Below are positions 1 to 44,735 of a DNA stretch of 64,000 nt, piece by piece; position 1 is the stretch's first letter; every line of letters begins with the position of its first letter. Below the pieces are notes generated by a model. The model saw only the letters and a list, made by a program, of their open reading frames with translations, was not told the DNA's origin and searched no databases. The position numbers and the translations under genes are program-made. The stretch is from Apteryx mantelli (Eukaryota; Chordata; Aves; Apterygiformes; Apterygidae), in assembly GCF_036417845.1 (NCBI RefSeq), contig NC_089980.1:68570501-68634500 (forward strand), in the 5' to 3' direction.

Positions 1-1370
1 ATGACCCAACCTCCTCCAGCCATAGAGTGTTTAATGAATAACTGCTCTCTGAACCACGGAAGACTTTTATCAACAGCTCATGTCCTGTTCTAGCCATTGT
101 GATATGGCTGGACCGAGTGCTGTTTTAAGGAACACTACTCTCAGGACATGACAGCTGGCTGAGTGACTTCCCTGAGCAGAGACAGAGATGGCAGGGACCT
201 ATCCTCACATACATTACTCACACTATGGAGAGCTCATCAGTTTTCAGTGGAAGGCTCCCTTGAACCTCTGATGCTCTAAGCCAAAATAAGGACAAGTCAC
301 AGGCCCTAACAGGACATCTAGCTTTTGTACATGAGCGGTACATCAGCTCCATCTAACCAAACCGTGCTAAAAGCTGATTATGCTGGAATAGTATTCAATT
401 GTGTAAAATGTTAGAGATTACAGTTATACAAGATATTCAAGAAAGCAGTAGTTATGACCAGTTCTAAATTCTAAATTCCCTGAATGGTATTCAGATTAGA
501 TGTTTAAATGTCCTTTCCTAATCCTGCCCTGTCACATATAGGGAAACTCAGAAGGAATAATACATACAGCTAAAAAGCTTTAGGGAAATAAATAGGCAGA
601 TATTTGAAAGACATGTCACATGCAAGGTTTATCAAAATCTGTTAAAAATATCAACTTTGTTTCGGTGATTATAATCCAGTACCGATTCCCCCTTCTACAG
701 TTGTCTACCCAGTCTTCTACTGCAGGAGAAGACAACAGTAAATGACTCTGTATACAGTAGAACATGCAATGGAAACATTACAAACCACAAAGCTTGAACC
801 TCTCTTCACGCTACTTTCCTGTGCCACAAATCAAACCATATCCTTCCCCCTTCTCCAGTAAGGACAACTGTAGGCTTTCTAATCCAGGAGGATTAAACAG
901 AAATAAGATTTAGACACTGACCACTTCTGTTACCACAAAAAGAAAGTGGAATCACACTAACAGATCAAAGTGGTGTTTAAATATCTGACAGAAAATTGAA
1001 AGTCATTCTGGAAAGAGGAATGTCCAACCCAATATTTTTTGTCAGTGATGATGTGCAGATTTTAAGTTTGCATAGTTCTTGTTAAACAATGTTCTGATGA
1101 ACTAACTATAGGCACAGGAACCAAATCAAGCAGCGGTCATTTCAACAACTAAATAATAGGTGGTGACCACCATCATGTACTACTGAATGACCCTCAGCAA
1201 CTGAATAGTTAAGAAATTGATAGCAGGGAAGATAGTCCAGCTGGAAGAGCACTTTCAAGGGTTTGCAACTTCCATTCCCAAATTTGCTTTGCAGTGCTGA
1301 ATGAACTTACCTTACATCTATCTTAGTCCCCCAAACCACCCAAAGGAAGTGACTGCTGTTCTCTCCTGTA
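1..1370. other. Intergenic, nothing recognised
   Basis: AT-rich sequence up to the transposon. I see no exon, RNA gene or clear repeat on either strand. Confidence 0.6.
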
Positions 1371-3161
1371 CAGGCATACCTCGGAGATGTTGCAGGTTCA
1401 GTTCCAGACCACTGCAGAAAACGAGTATCACAATAAAGCAAGTCATATGAATTTTTTGATTTCCCAGTGCGTATAAAAGTTATGTTTACACTATACTGTA
1501 GTCTATTAAGTGCACAATAGCATTATGCCAAAAAAAAAAAAGTACATACCTTAATTAAAAAAATACTTCATTGCTAAAAAATGCTAACCATCATCTTAGC
1601 CTTCAGTGAGTAGTAATCTTTTTGCTGATGGGGGGGTCTTGCCTCGATGTTGATAGCTGCTGACTGATCAGGGTGGTGGAATCACTATCTATGGCAGCTA
1701 TAGCCTTACAAAATGTATTGCTTAAAAAGTAAGACTTGAAAGTCGAAATGAATCCTTGATCCATGGGCTGCAGAATGGATGTTGTGTTAGCAGGCATGAA
1801 AACAACATGAATCTCATTGTACATCTCCATCAGAGCTCTTGGGTGACCAGGTGCATTGTCAATGAGCAGTAATATTTTGAAAGACATCTTTTTTTCTGAG
1901 CAGTAGGTCTCAACAGTGGGCTTAAAATATTCAGTAAACCATGTTGTAAACAGATGTGCTGTCATCCAGGCTTTGTTGTTCCATTTATAGAGCACAGGCA
2001 GAGTAGATTTAGCATAATTCTTCAGGACCCTAGGATTTTTGGCATGGTAAATGAGCATTGGCTTCAACTTAAAGTCACCAGCTGCATTAGCCCCTAACAA
2101 GAGAGTCAGCCTGTACTTTGAAGCTTTGAAGCCAGGCCTTGACTTCTCCTCTCTAGCTATGAAAGTCCTGGATGATATCACCTTCCAATAGAAGGCTGTT
2201 TTGTCTGTATTAAAAATCTGTTGTTTAGGGTAGCCACCTTCATCAATTATCTTAGCTAGATCTTCTGGATAACTTGCTGCGGCTTCTACATCAGCACTTT
2301 TATGTTACAGAGATGGCTTCTTTCCTTAAACTTCATGAACCAACTTCTGCTAGCTTCAAACTTTTCTTCTGCAGCTTCCTCACCTCTCCCAGCCTTCACA
2401 GAATTGAAGAGAGTTATAGCCCTGCTCTGGATGAGGCTTTGGCTTAAGGGAATGTTGTGGCTGGTTTGATCTAGCCAGACCTCTAAAACTTTCTCCATAC
2501 CAGCAAGAAGGCTGTTTCACTTATCATTCGTGTGTTCCCTGGAGTAGCACTTTGAATTTCCTTCAGGAACTTTTCCTTTGCACTCACAACTTGGCAAACC
2601 GTTTGGCGCAAGAGGCCAAGCTTTCGGCCTGTCTCGGCTTTCAACGTGCCTTCCTCACTAAGCTTCATCATTTCTAGCTTTTGATTTAAAGGGAGAGACC
2701 TGCGACTCTTCCTTTCACTGGAACACTTAGAGGCCATTGTAGGGTTACTAATTGCCCTAATTTCAATATTGTTGTGTCGCAGGGGATAAGGAGGCCCAAG
2801 GAGAGGGAGCAAGATGGGAGAATGGCAGGTCGGTGGAACAATCAGAACACACACAACATTATTGATTAAAGTTCCCCATCTTATATGGGTGTGGTTTGTG
2901 GCGCCCCGAAACAATTACAATAGTAACATCAAAGGTCACTGATCAGAGACCACCATAACAGATATAATAATAATGAAAGAGTTTGAAATATTGTGAGAAT
3001 TACCAAAAGGTGACACAGAGACACAAAGTGAGCACATGCTGTTGGAAAAATGGTGCCGATAGACTTGCTCAATGCAGGGTTGCCACAAACTTTCAATTTG
3101 TAAAAAATGCAATATCTGCAAAGCACAATAAAGCGAAGCGCAATAAAATGAGGTATGCCTG
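1371..3161 (-). mobile_element. Tigger1-like DNA transposon (Tc1/mariner-pogo), internally deleted
   Basis: A 1,791-bp element is bounded by perfect 12-bp inverted ends (caggcatacctc) and flanked on both sides by the dinucleotide TA (1369-1370 and 3162-3163), the target duplication expected for this superfamily. The long ends carry the repeated aataaagcgaa-type motifs of Tigger1. The inside encodes, on the minus strand, a broken pogo-type transposase. It is about 600 bp shorter than the full-length mammalian Tigger1 I remember, owing to an internal deletion near position 1680. The excellent preservation of both ends suggests a fairly young insertion. Confidence 0.93.
1603..2737 (-). pseudogene. 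Tigger/pogo transposase remnant
   Basis: Reading the minus strand from the ATG at 2737 gives an N-terminal CENP-B-like helix-turn-helix region ([20 protein letters not shown], then [13 protein letters not shown]). After a frameshift near 2520 comes [20 protein letters not shown], the second DNA-binding part. A small deletion near 2300 shifts the frame again. The catalytic domain follows with [11 protein letters not shown] (first Asp; the next residue, usually Glu, is Lys), [11 protein letters not shown] (second Asp) and ILQPMDQG (third Asp), with 32 residues between the second and third Asp. The sequence then jumps from AAIDSDS to TTLISQQ, showing the internal deletion that removes the rest of the C-terminal half. 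It cannot make an active transposase. Confidence 0.93.
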
Positions 3162-6100
3162 TATATGGAAACATTGTGAAGAGCAAGAATGAACCCACTA
3201 AAAACTGTGGGGAACTTAGGCTCCCCAGCTGTGGGTACCAGAGTCCCCACATACCATGCAAAACAAGTATTTGTTTTTAGAGCCCAGTCAAGGTCAATCC
3301 ACCTCATTAATAGCAGAGGTTAACTTTTCACCAGAGAAAGAAGCAATGAACTACCAGACTCTATTAAATTGCTGAACCAAAATCTGATAATTTTAAGTTA
3401 ATAAAGCTTATGACAATGCCATAGCTACAATTATACAGGAGTCAACTCCTTTTGCTAGATGCAAGAACGGAAGGTAGCCTCTCACAAAAACACCTCTGAT
3501 CCATGTGCTACCAACGGTCTGGTTCCTAGGAGTCACCATATAACAACGTTAATGTAGCCACATTCTTGCCTATCATTTTCCTTAGGGTTTTATGCAGTGT
3601 CCATTTACTATCCTCTTACAGCAGAACCTGACAATAGAACTAAACACTCTAAATCAACTGCTTCTCTAATAAAAAACTTCCCTAGACCAGGCCTCCATGT
3701 TCCAGGCATTTACAGAATAAACTTCTTGTATTTCCTTTCCAAAGAAGCCAGGTGACAGAGCTGAACCTATGGGTTCAATCTTAGTTTCACAGCATGCTGA
3801 CCAGGGAAAACATTTGTCCCCCTCCCCCCCCCCCCCAACCATTTAAAAGTTTCAAGCACAGCTAGATAAACAGGGAGTTTCCCCAGAGTTTCCCCAACTT
3901 GCATAATACTTTCCCTTCTCTTCCTCTTCCCTTATATCCTCCAAGCTGGTCAATCAGAGAACATGGCAGAAACCCCAGGAGTCTGCATGCAGAAGAGCAG
4001 CGGTCCTTGCTACATTCTTGCCAGTCGTGCTACTGATCTCCTAGAACTCAAACCAAGTTCTCTATTGCCCACGGATGCTCCACATCAGAGACAATTGCCT
4101 CTGCTCAGCAATTCTCTTCAGAGAAACAGAAAGAAAAGACAACTCCAAACAAACACACATGATGCTTTCCTTTCTCTCCTTAAACACAGAAACATCTCTT
4201 TTTCCTACTCTTCAGTTCAAAGGATTGTATTTTACCCGCTATTCTTCCTCCAGCTCCAGGAAAACCTGGATCTGGCAAGTGACCAATTGTTCCAGACAGC
4301 TACTTTTTTCCAAGACTACAGCAGCCCAGCTGTGGCTGAGTTAAAATTGCAAGTGTGACAATTTAGCAGGGAGAGAAGCAGTAAGAGTTTGCTCTGGCAT
4401 AGACCAAGGGTGGGAGGACTGGGAGAGGACTGACATACCAATGCCTGTATAAGGCCTTGTGACAACTAGTAGTTGTCTCGGTGGTTTTACAAGTATCAGT
4501 TGTATTTACTCTAGTTGAAGTGTTGCAGTCTGCAATAGAGAGTCAGGTTTCCTGTGATGGCTTCACAGTTCGGCATTCCTAAAACAGCCAACACCCTCAG
4601 TCAGGATCAAGGCCTCATCATGGTAGATAGCAGATAGATACAGAAGATGACATCATCCCATCCCAAAGACCTGGCAAAGATAAAGAGCCACTTTAGATGA
4701 TGGCAATGTTCCTGGAAGGGGGGAAAAAACAAATCCAACCATGCCCCCTCTTGGCTTCTACTAAAATAATGACTATGTGAAGGGGAGTATTTAAAACATT
4801 GATTGCATGCATACACATAAATGAAATCGAGACTCACACTCAGAGCCAGGAAGTTCTTTAGACAAAGCCTGCAAGCTCCTGCCTGTAATAATCTTCTTGC
4901 CTTCTGATTAGGCTCAAGAAAATGGCTTATCATTTTTCCTCTTCTCTAATCTGCCACTATTTGTAAATGTGTTTTTCCTCCCTCCTATACTTTCAGTTGG
5001 TTTTATTTATGTAGACATGCCAGCGTGGTAAATTTCAGACCTATAATTTGTGGCTTCCTGACTTGGGGATCATTCTGAAATCCTTCCCATGTGGCTGTTC
5101 CTCCAGCTAAATATTTACACACATACACACTGCACATAACTTTTACTTATGTACATGGGCAAGGGCTCAGCATATTTCACATAATTTTTCAGAGTCTACA
5201 TGTGTTTCAGATCATGACAACACACCGAAAATATGTGCCTACAAAACCTTTTTAAATGTATTTATAGAAAACAGTATGTGCTTACCCTTGAGGTGGTTTC
5301 TATATATAGAAGTCTATATATTAGATTTCCTGTTCTCATTCTCTGTCTTCAAGATCTTCTCTTGTTATTTGGGTTTCCATTATGGGACAGCTGTACATTA
5401 TTATTCACTGGCACAGAATCAGTTCAAACATAAATTCTGATAAGACGCACGTACATGATAAAGGAACCCTGAGAATATCCCCTAAAGAAACATCTAGACT
5501 TTCACATTTCCCTCAGTTCAATAACAGTGATGGTGTGGGAGTTAGCAGCAATATTCTGCCCAGTGTCTACTAAGAGAACACAGCTGATAGGTCTTGAATG
5601 TATCAAAAAGGAGTGGTGTTATAAATGACAATGAAAGATGGTTGCCATCATATTTAATACATGCATGTTTTAAATCACTTCAAAAAAAAAAAAATACTAG
5701 GATATTCAACCTTGTCTACCCAGAGTGGTTTTAACAGTCATTGAGTTCCAAAACCTGTCTTTAATCGGTCATTTTAGCTTGTGTATGAGGCCAAAAAAGC
5801 CTGATGGCAAGTCCAAAGATATTTATAACAGGTTTTATTAGCCCTGCCCTGCAATAAGCTACATGCACCCTGACTGATGGATGTCAGTCATCCAACTCTG
5901 AATAGGAATGCAGGTCTGCCTAAAGAATTGTGGCTAGTTCTTGACTGCTTCACAGTTTTTTTTGAAAGTATTCATCCTTTGCAGTATGATAGTTAAATAT
6001 TACTTTCCCTACTGTGACCTTACTTTTCATACTGCTGAGAGATGAAACGACACAGGCAGGCTGCAGCAGAAATGGCATCTGCACTCACAACTTGCAAGTC

Positions 6101-24976: not shown

Positions 24977-26591
<1,615 letters not shown>

Positions 26592-44095: not shown

Positions 44096-44735
44096 GGTCA
44101 CAGCATTACCCAGGTGAGAAAGGACCTCAGCAGGTCTCAGCCCAACCTCCTGCTCAAAGCAGGGTCAGCTGTGAGCTCAGACCATGTCACTCAGGGCTTT
44201 GCCCCCTCAGGCCTTGGAAACCTCCAAGGAGGGAGACTGCACCACCTCTCTGAGCGACCTGATCCACTGCCTGACTGTCCTCAGGGTGAGAAAATTTTCT
44301 CTTAAAACCAGCCTGACCCTCTCCTGTTCCAGCTTCTGCCCTGCATCTCTGGGCCTCCTGCCACACACCACTGTGCAGAGCCCAGAGCTGCTTTCTTGCC
44401 GAGCTCTCCGCAGCGCTGGGGCTGTGGTGAGCTCCCCCCGCAGCTGTCTCTGCCCCGGGCTGGACCAGCCCCACTCCCTCAGCCTCTCCTCATGGGGCGA
44501 GTGCTCCAGTACCAGCCATCTTGGCGGCCCTCTGCCAAGTTCAATCCAATCTGTCAGTGTCTCTCCTATGCTGGGGCAGGGGCAGAAAGTAGGCAAAACT
44601 GCATGTGGTACTCTAGATGTAGACTAACAAGTGCTGAGTAAAGGGAAATAATCACTTCCCTCAATCTCTTCCCATTCACACGGTCCAGGATGCTGTTGAC
44701 CTTTGGTGCCAAGGCACACTGCTGGTTCACGTTCC
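44096..44735 (-). mobile_element. Avian-type CR1 LINE 3' fragment in intron 2
   Basis: This GC-rich block contains a chain of landmarks of avian CR1 read in antisense: gagaaaggacctcagcaggt, cctgctcaaagcagggtcag, ctccctcagcctctcctcat, agtgctccagtaccagccat, cttggcggccctctgcc, acaagtgctgagtaaaggg and aggatgctgttgacctttgg. Open frames of 81-147 codons across it on both strands come from its GC content and are not host genes. It is the strongest single indicator that the genome is avian. Confidence 0.88.

Follow-up and report, generated by a model that had tools for sequence, protein, structure and literature searches.

Tigger1, a DNA transposon of placental mammals, very probably reached the kiwi lineage by horizontal transfer, and its kiwi copies that lie 0.1-4 Mb apart share derived variants. 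This local sharing is new here, and it is pointing to GC-biased ectopic gene conversion between neighboring copies rather than to local hopping of the element. A history of transfer, one wave of spread, decay and conversion is in our judgment the best explanation of the data as a whole, and we hold it with considerable confidence.

The presence of Tigger1 in the brown kiwi was already in print in 2016, with both transfer and contamination left open (PMC4971623). An undecided published sighting now becomes a well-supported case of a DNA transposon common to a bird and placental mammals, groups in which such transfers are reported to be rare: of at least 975 transfer events in a study of 307 vertebrates, fewer than 3% involve mammals and birds (PMC7070016). 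Our literature search on horizontal transfer of DNA transposons in birds did not find the kiwi case reported, and a search on gene conversion between transposon copies returned no paper on the subject, as judged by title.

The window copy and its host genome

The window is the whole 64,000-nucleotide stretch of DNA that was analyzed. It contains, at 1371..3161 with the transposase on the minus strand, a non-functional copy that retains 1791 bp of a 2419-bp family. Tigger1 is a pogo-group DNA transposon that moves by cut and paste, and this copy of it is dead and has an internal deletion. Its plus-strand 12-bp terminal inverted repeats (left, 1371..1382; right, 3150..3161) match each other perfectly and are bordered by the two halves of a TA target-site duplication (1369..1370 and 3162..3163). 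The perfect ends and intact TA duplication of the original prediction are exact; together they form a 14-nt perfect inverted repeat (1369-1382 and 3150-3163).

Three broken minus-strand frames carry the layout of a pogo-type transposase, and all three domains exceed the Pfam cut-offs: the N-terminal DNA-binding CENP-B_N (2483..2914, PF04218, 2.1e-14), the DNA-binding HTH_Tnp_Tc5 (2286..2516, PF03221, 5.4e-10), and the DDE_1 catalytic domain (1603..2304, PF03184, 5.7e-45). The 1603-2304 frame contains the motif QPMDQG, which together with a second motif of that frame may hold the catalytic DDD triad. Good preservation had also been claimed, but the copy is not intact. A stretch of 603 bp of the genome consensus (positions 309-911) is missing from it, with the junction at 1679..1680, a deletion present in 1 of 40 aligned copies. 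There are two insertions of 1 bp as well, the smaller deletions measure 19, 4, 3, and 1 bp, and the transposase is broken.

The surroundings had been described as avian CR1 repeats. With a single CR1 query, the window yielded only two weak CR1-like remnants, at 44210-44305 and 44430-44532 (73% identity), neither of them near the element. CR1-like DNA is present around other kiwi Tigger1 copies (8 loci, 68-74%). Elsewhere in the window, an exon-like frame at 24977-25351 on the minus strand encodes a CNK2_3 domain (Pfam 3.2e-42), as in a CNKSR2/3-type gene. A scan of nine other window frames for Pfam domains gave nothing.

To identify the host, we searched the assembly in which the window lies, of 1.504 Gb in 408 contigs, which include contigs of 223, 173, 141, and 91 Mb and much smaller ones; the published estimate for the kiwi genome is 1.65 Gb (PMC4511969). 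With a reconstructed bovine rhodopsin as the query, an RH2-like opsin gene was found on contig 25. At the place of ERY in the query, exon 2 of this gene has LAIKRYIVVCKP, a Glu134Lys substitution carried in the RH2 stretch LAIKRYIVV. The same substitution was reported for two brown kiwi as well as for further kiwi species, and Glu134 is described as 100% conserved among other birds with sequence (Le Duc et al. 2015, PMC4511969). Because RH2 Glu134Lys has been published as kiwi-specific, the host is a kiwi, genus Apteryx, and the bird host of the original prediction is borne out. Beside the published exon 2 change, exon 1 of this RH2 gene (L061, G000:C25:7350285-7350670) has an in-frame TGA. 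A second locus, L064, was considered as the blue opsin and rejected, as its sequence reads like another opsin. We also observed a nuclear copy of mitochondrial cytochrome b with four TGA and one TAA in frame (L049, G000:C5:76869236-76869688), which was left out of the host identification.

With up to 2 mismatches allowed, a 24-nt pattern taken from the left end occurs 772 times genome-wide (381 on one strand, 391 on the other), a count of copies that the original prediction had called for. The reversed 24-nt control pattern had 0, which excludes chance. For closer study, blastn in the host genome gave 892 first-look candidates, of which 40 were scored; these yielded 78 matching pieces in 40 places, one of which is the window copy. 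These 40 copies were taken with their flanks, and ten more were picked by position from the list of exact left ends, giving 50. As 39 of the 50 were selected for similarity to the window copy, the window's chromosome (C3 below) is over-represented among them.

The copies are spread over many chromosome-sized contigs. TA was present on both sides of 43 of the 50 and on one side of 5, in two of which the right end is doubtful; in the other 2, an end was not found. The 50 copies have 48 distinct left flanks. The hundreds of places, the TA duplications and the differing flanks show that the element is neither contamination, which the original prediction had called less likely, nor an assembly artifact, which it had called possible. 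When the joined 150-bp flanks of 40 copies were compared to the other flanks and the rest of the window in search of empty sites, there was one match, which did not span a site.

Identity, age and origin of the kiwi family

The consensus of the first 40 kiwi copies is 2419 bp long. We compared it to a 2419-bp reconstruction of the human Tigger1 consensus: 2405 positions were the same and 14 different, with 2 gap columns (99.4% identity), and in the noncoding parts 638 of 640 positions were the same. The reconstructed human sequence was not derived from the window copy, as it follows the genome consensus at 115 of the 118 sites where window copy and consensus differ (window, 1; neither, 2). It was also 600/604 identical to the kiwi consensus over the 604-bp segment missing from the window copy, and this segment was reconstructed before the interior of any full copy had been read.

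Judged by sequence, then, the family is Tigger1: the three domains, the ends, the TA and a consensus 14 sites from the reconstructed human one uphold the assignment first made from the letters. It has the length, ends, TA target and transposase of Tigger1 of placental mammals (pogo group, Tc1/mariner superfamily). On the other hand, it differs in having a bird host, a deletion derivative lacking consensus 725-1336, and copies only about 4% diverged, compared to 13.6-16% for those of bats (PMC4971623). The same source describes a bat element, Tigger1_MNa of Miniopterus natalensis, whose similarity to human TIGGER1 is almost 97.5%. The brown kiwi has over 20 insertions that match this bat element at 97% or more, across 92% or more of its length (PMC4971623). 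Those insertions almost certainly belong to the family described here. The 2016 report gives more than 20 matches, with transfer undecided and contamination possible (PMC4971623), whereas the copies here lie in chromosome-sized contigs and have been counted, dated and shown to be integrated. Relatives of Tigger1 were also sought in collections of genome contigs and of viral contigs, and none were found there.

The divergence from a reconstructed consensus, a measurement proposed at the outset, is about 4%. The ten copies picked by position differ from the consensus by 3.2-5.4% (mean 4.05%; K2P, non-CpG). Among the 48 copies with more than 1000 usable sites the mean was 3.7%, with a standard deviation of 0.56% against a Poisson expectation of 0.42%, and the mean pairwise distance was 7.0% compared to 7.4% for twice the distance to the consensus. 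The narrow spread and the near equality of these two distances suggest something close to a single wave. The element ends differ from the consensus by 3.4%, uncorrected.

At the general avian rate of 1.9e-9, these values correspond to about 18-21 Myr. At the kiwi rate of 8.0e-10 per year (PMC9550048) they correspond to 43-51 Myr, the figure of 43 coming from the element ends. We infer an age of roughly 20-50 Myr, which depends on the clock and is disturbed by GC bias; where copies convert each other, transposon divergence is not a clean clock. The recent wave of the original prediction can therefore be kept as a wave, close to a single one, although at about 4% non-CpG divergence it was not very recent. 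None of 40 copies has an open transposase, and the family looks dead in kiwi. Ten of the 40 are of the deletion derivative, all with the same junction.

In outline, Tigger1 would have entered the kiwi lineage horizontally, its source being a placental mammal or some carrier that supplied mammals too. To judge from the terminal repeats, TA duplications and transposase domains, it would then have spread in close to a single wave as copies were excised and reinserted at TA sites, with the 725-1336 deletion derivative carried along, until the transposase decayed and movement ended. The more diverged mammalian copies (13.6-16% in the bats of PMC4971623) favor passage from mammal to bird or a common carrier, bearing in mind that the clocks of the two groups differ. 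A case related in kind is a potential transfer of a pogo-like element between the white-ruffed manakin and a butterfly (PMC7325037), likened here by its description. It also joins a bird to another animal, but both the bird and the partner are different.

Three other accounts of the origin were weighed. If Tigger1 had been present in the amniote ancestor and had survived in kiwi and mammals, the noncoding sequence should have diverged with the hosts. Exon 1 of kiwi rhodopsin, however, encodes a protein only 87% identical (13% different) to the reconstructed bovine one, compared to 2 differences in 640 noncoding positions of Tigger1, and vertical descent is therefore not plausible. The noncoding near-identity to the reconstructed mammalian sequence contradicts it, and the kiwi copies are only about 4% from their own consensus. 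According to one paper (PMC7325037), domesticated TIGD1 sequences occur widely among tetrapods, which would suit vertical descent, yet a Tigger survey gives one bird species (PMC9219625). We regard this origin as scarcely credible. Contamination or misassembly with mammalian DNA was a doubt that the authors of 2016, working with the first kiwi assembly, could not conclusively exclude (PMC4971623). It is refuted by the differing host flanks, and the 772 left ends, the chromosome-sized contigs and the TA duplications stand against it as well, as does a divergence of about 4%, unlike that of the mammalian copies (bats, 13.6-16%; PMC4971623); its probability is practically negligible. No other reading comes close to horizontal transfer, to which the original prediction had also pointed: the near-identity of noncoding sequence to the reconstructed mammalian Tigger1 is far above what the divergence of the hosts would lead one to expect.

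The third account concerns the timing of the transfer. The invasion may predate kiwi, in which case emu and cassowary or other palaeognaths would carry it too; we consider this unlikely, though a good deal less so than the two origins above. An age of 43-51 Myr at the published kiwi rate is close to that of the kiwi lineage itself, and the slow kiwi clock makes an older date possible. The BLAST search of 2016 against NCBI genomes names kiwi only (PMC4971623), which argues for the kiwi lineage alone, but genomes of emu and cassowary were, to our knowledge, not publicly available in that year.

Derived variants shared between neighboring copies

We use "near" for pairs of copies 0.1-4 Mb apart. 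Among near pairs outside C3, the sharing of derived variants was 0.213 (10 pairs), compared to 0.033 under permutation, and the observed value was reached in 0 of 5000 permutations; with C3 included it was 0.225 (30 pairs) compared to 0.036. As near pairs overlap in their members, p-values computed over pairs are too small. Variants from G/C to A/T and GC-neutral variants were likewise shared locally.

The haplotype of the window copy at consensus 1824/1841 gives a specific example. It has six exact matches in the genome, all at C3:64.97-68.57 Mb. With one mismatch allowed there were 11 more: three of them fall at C3:63.55-67.83 Mb, and the remaining eight are on other contigs. Exact matches to the ancestral haplotype number 36; they are dispersed, with none at C3:63-69 Mb.

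Two further samples, the first 100 of 161 matches and the first 100 of 135, were drawn with short patterns from the largest contigs and were chosen independently of similarity to the window copy. In both, every distance bin below 4 Mb was equaled in at most 1 of 3000 permutations. At less than 0.5 Mb the mean number of differing sites was 0.33 in the first sample and 0.15 in the second; at 2-4 Mb it had risen to 1.00 and 0.67, and between contigs it was 1.74 and 1.14. At 4-16 Mb the first sample showed some effect (80 and 8 of 3000 permutations), while the second showed none in that range (1920 and 446 of 3000). Two CpG sites were also compared by distance. The one in the left end had no significant locality at less than 1 Mb (0.41 vs 0.49; 1169 of 5000), while the interior one gave 0.30 vs 0.65 at less than 1 Mb (2 of 5000) and 205 of 5000 at 1-4 Mb.

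The sharing was patchy along the element. The window copy and L009 shared 0 of 26 variants in consensus 1-300 and 0 of 21 at 1400-1600, compared to 13 of 18 at 1600-2000, and L009 and L010 shared 60 of 62 in 300-2000, compared to 1 of 14 at one end and 5 of 22 at the other. Of 20 near pairs picked by hand from 31, 17 were so patchy that at most 67 of 4000 shuffles were as patchy; the other three were not significant (359, 513, and 1948 of 4000). In the window, the tract common to the Tigger1 copies at 63.6-68.6 Mb of C3 lies at 2389..2692, corresponding to about consensus 1640-1950 (window coordinates derived from the indels of the copy), and is probably a converted tract.

The ends of the element were shared less than the interior. 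Over the 30 near pairs, sharing was 0.02 at consensus 0-100, 0.53 at 1700-1900, and 0.08 at 2320-2419. Pooled, it was 0.07 (65/914) for the ends (0-300 and 2200-2419) and 0.27 (631/2312) for the interior. This argues against hopping, which would copy ends and interior alike. Without C3 the edge effect was weaker: sharing reached 0.23 at consensus 100-200 and was 0.15 at 2320-2419, and the interior ranged from 0.07 to 0.34. Pooled, it was 0.11 (26/246) for the ends and 0.22 (188/869) for the interior (Fisher p 7e-5, over overlapping pairs).

Shared variants were biased toward G/C. Without C3, 114 of 148 variants shared by near pairs were changes from A/T to G/C, compared to 315 of 666 unshared ones (Fisher p 3e-11). 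Among all copies, variants present in at least 4 copies comprised 135 of 169 from A/T to G/C and 27 of 169 in the reverse direction, compared to 564 and 394 of 1218 private variants. The per-site ratio of changes toward G/C over changes toward A/T was 0.60 at consensus 0-100, 2.52 at 1700-1900, and 0.97 at 2320-2419.

Two further results concern the history of the variants within the element. All four combinations occurred in 1052 of 2199 pairs of shared transversions, indicating reticulation. In addition, neighbors of different deletion classes shared 0.188 without C3 (5 pairs, 0.032-0.378) and 0.160 on C3 (12 pairs), compared to 0.030 for distant pairs of the same class (613 pairs); the class of L053 and L057 was assigned from alignment gaps. 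Linkage disequilibrium between shared transversions, on the other hand, did not decay with distance inside the element, as mean r2 was 0.07-0.10 in all bins. A simple tract model would not predict this flat profile, to which old variants from before or during the wave may contribute.

Conversion, hopping and assembly artifacts

Exchange thus declines with distance, its patchy tracts avoid the ends, and it comes with reticulation and a G/C bias, as is characteristic of gene conversion, which is probably the main cause of the similarity between neighbors. Under the proposed mechanism, copies up to about 4 Mb apart on a chromosome would serve as templates for the repair of each other's breaks, and GC-biased ectopic conversion would homogenize the interiors of neighbors more than their ends, with the flanks beyond remaining different. 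The more specific proposal, that copies within about 4 Mb converted each other's interiors with a strong G/C bias long after the death of the transposon and so produced neighborhood dialects of Tigger1, is one toward which we lean on balance.

One possibility is that Tigger1 hopped locally, as Sleeping Beauty does, and that neighbors are alike because one gave rise to the other. The scale of a few Mb matches that of local hopping, and the genome contains close, near-identical pairs with different flanks (L014/L015 and L032/L033). The identity of L014 and L015 to their very ends fits late transposition as well as it fits conversion, and without C3 the edge effect is merely twofold. This weaker edge effect lowers the odds of conversion slightly and raises those of hopping. 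However, hopping does not explain why the ends are shared less than the interior in either set of pairs, why sharing is patchy in 17 of 20 pairs, or why shared variants are biased toward G/C. It also does not explain why full-length and deletion-class neighbors share 0.16-0.19, compared to 0.030 for distant copies of one class, although the ten deletion copies have the same junction. We therefore rejected local hopping as the main cause, on the patchiness, the lower sharing of the ends and the G/C bias, and consider it improbable. Another possibility is that short-read polishing or mis-mapped reads mixed the interiors of copies during assembly. Such an artifact would likewise spare the ends, but mis-mapping is blind to chromosomal distance, yet similarity drops with distance in three samples, and polishing gives no reason for a G/C bias; this is very improbable.

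Non-allelic gene conversion is known between neighboring Alu elements, where dispersed repeats are likewise homogenized with their neighbors with a G/C bias. Unlike Alu, the kiwi element is a DNA transposon that a bird acquired horizontally, and the effect extends to about 4 Mb. Copies that began almost identical, at positions that are known, make it possible to measure non-allelic conversion in a vertebrate genome in terms of its distance, tracts and base bias. If conversion is indeed the cause, hundreds of horizontally acquired copies would make up a natural reporter with which ectopic recombination can be followed along whole chromosomes of a bird.

Both close pairs mentioned above are inverted. 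L014 and L015 (G000:C13:8.47-8.49 Mb) lie about 10 kb apart in opposite orientation and are identical over 2416 of 2416 bp, including ends and lesions, with flanks that differ, which would require very late transposition or complete conversion. L032 and L033 (G000:C1:166.59-166.64 Mb) form an inverted pair about 45 kb apart, identical at 2346 of 2352 positions, also with differing flanks. Within the deletion class, L041-L043, L045, and L046 have an additional tandem repeat, about 20 bp long, at the deletion junction, near consensus 704-725, while L038-L040, L044, and L047 belong to the same class without the extra repeat.
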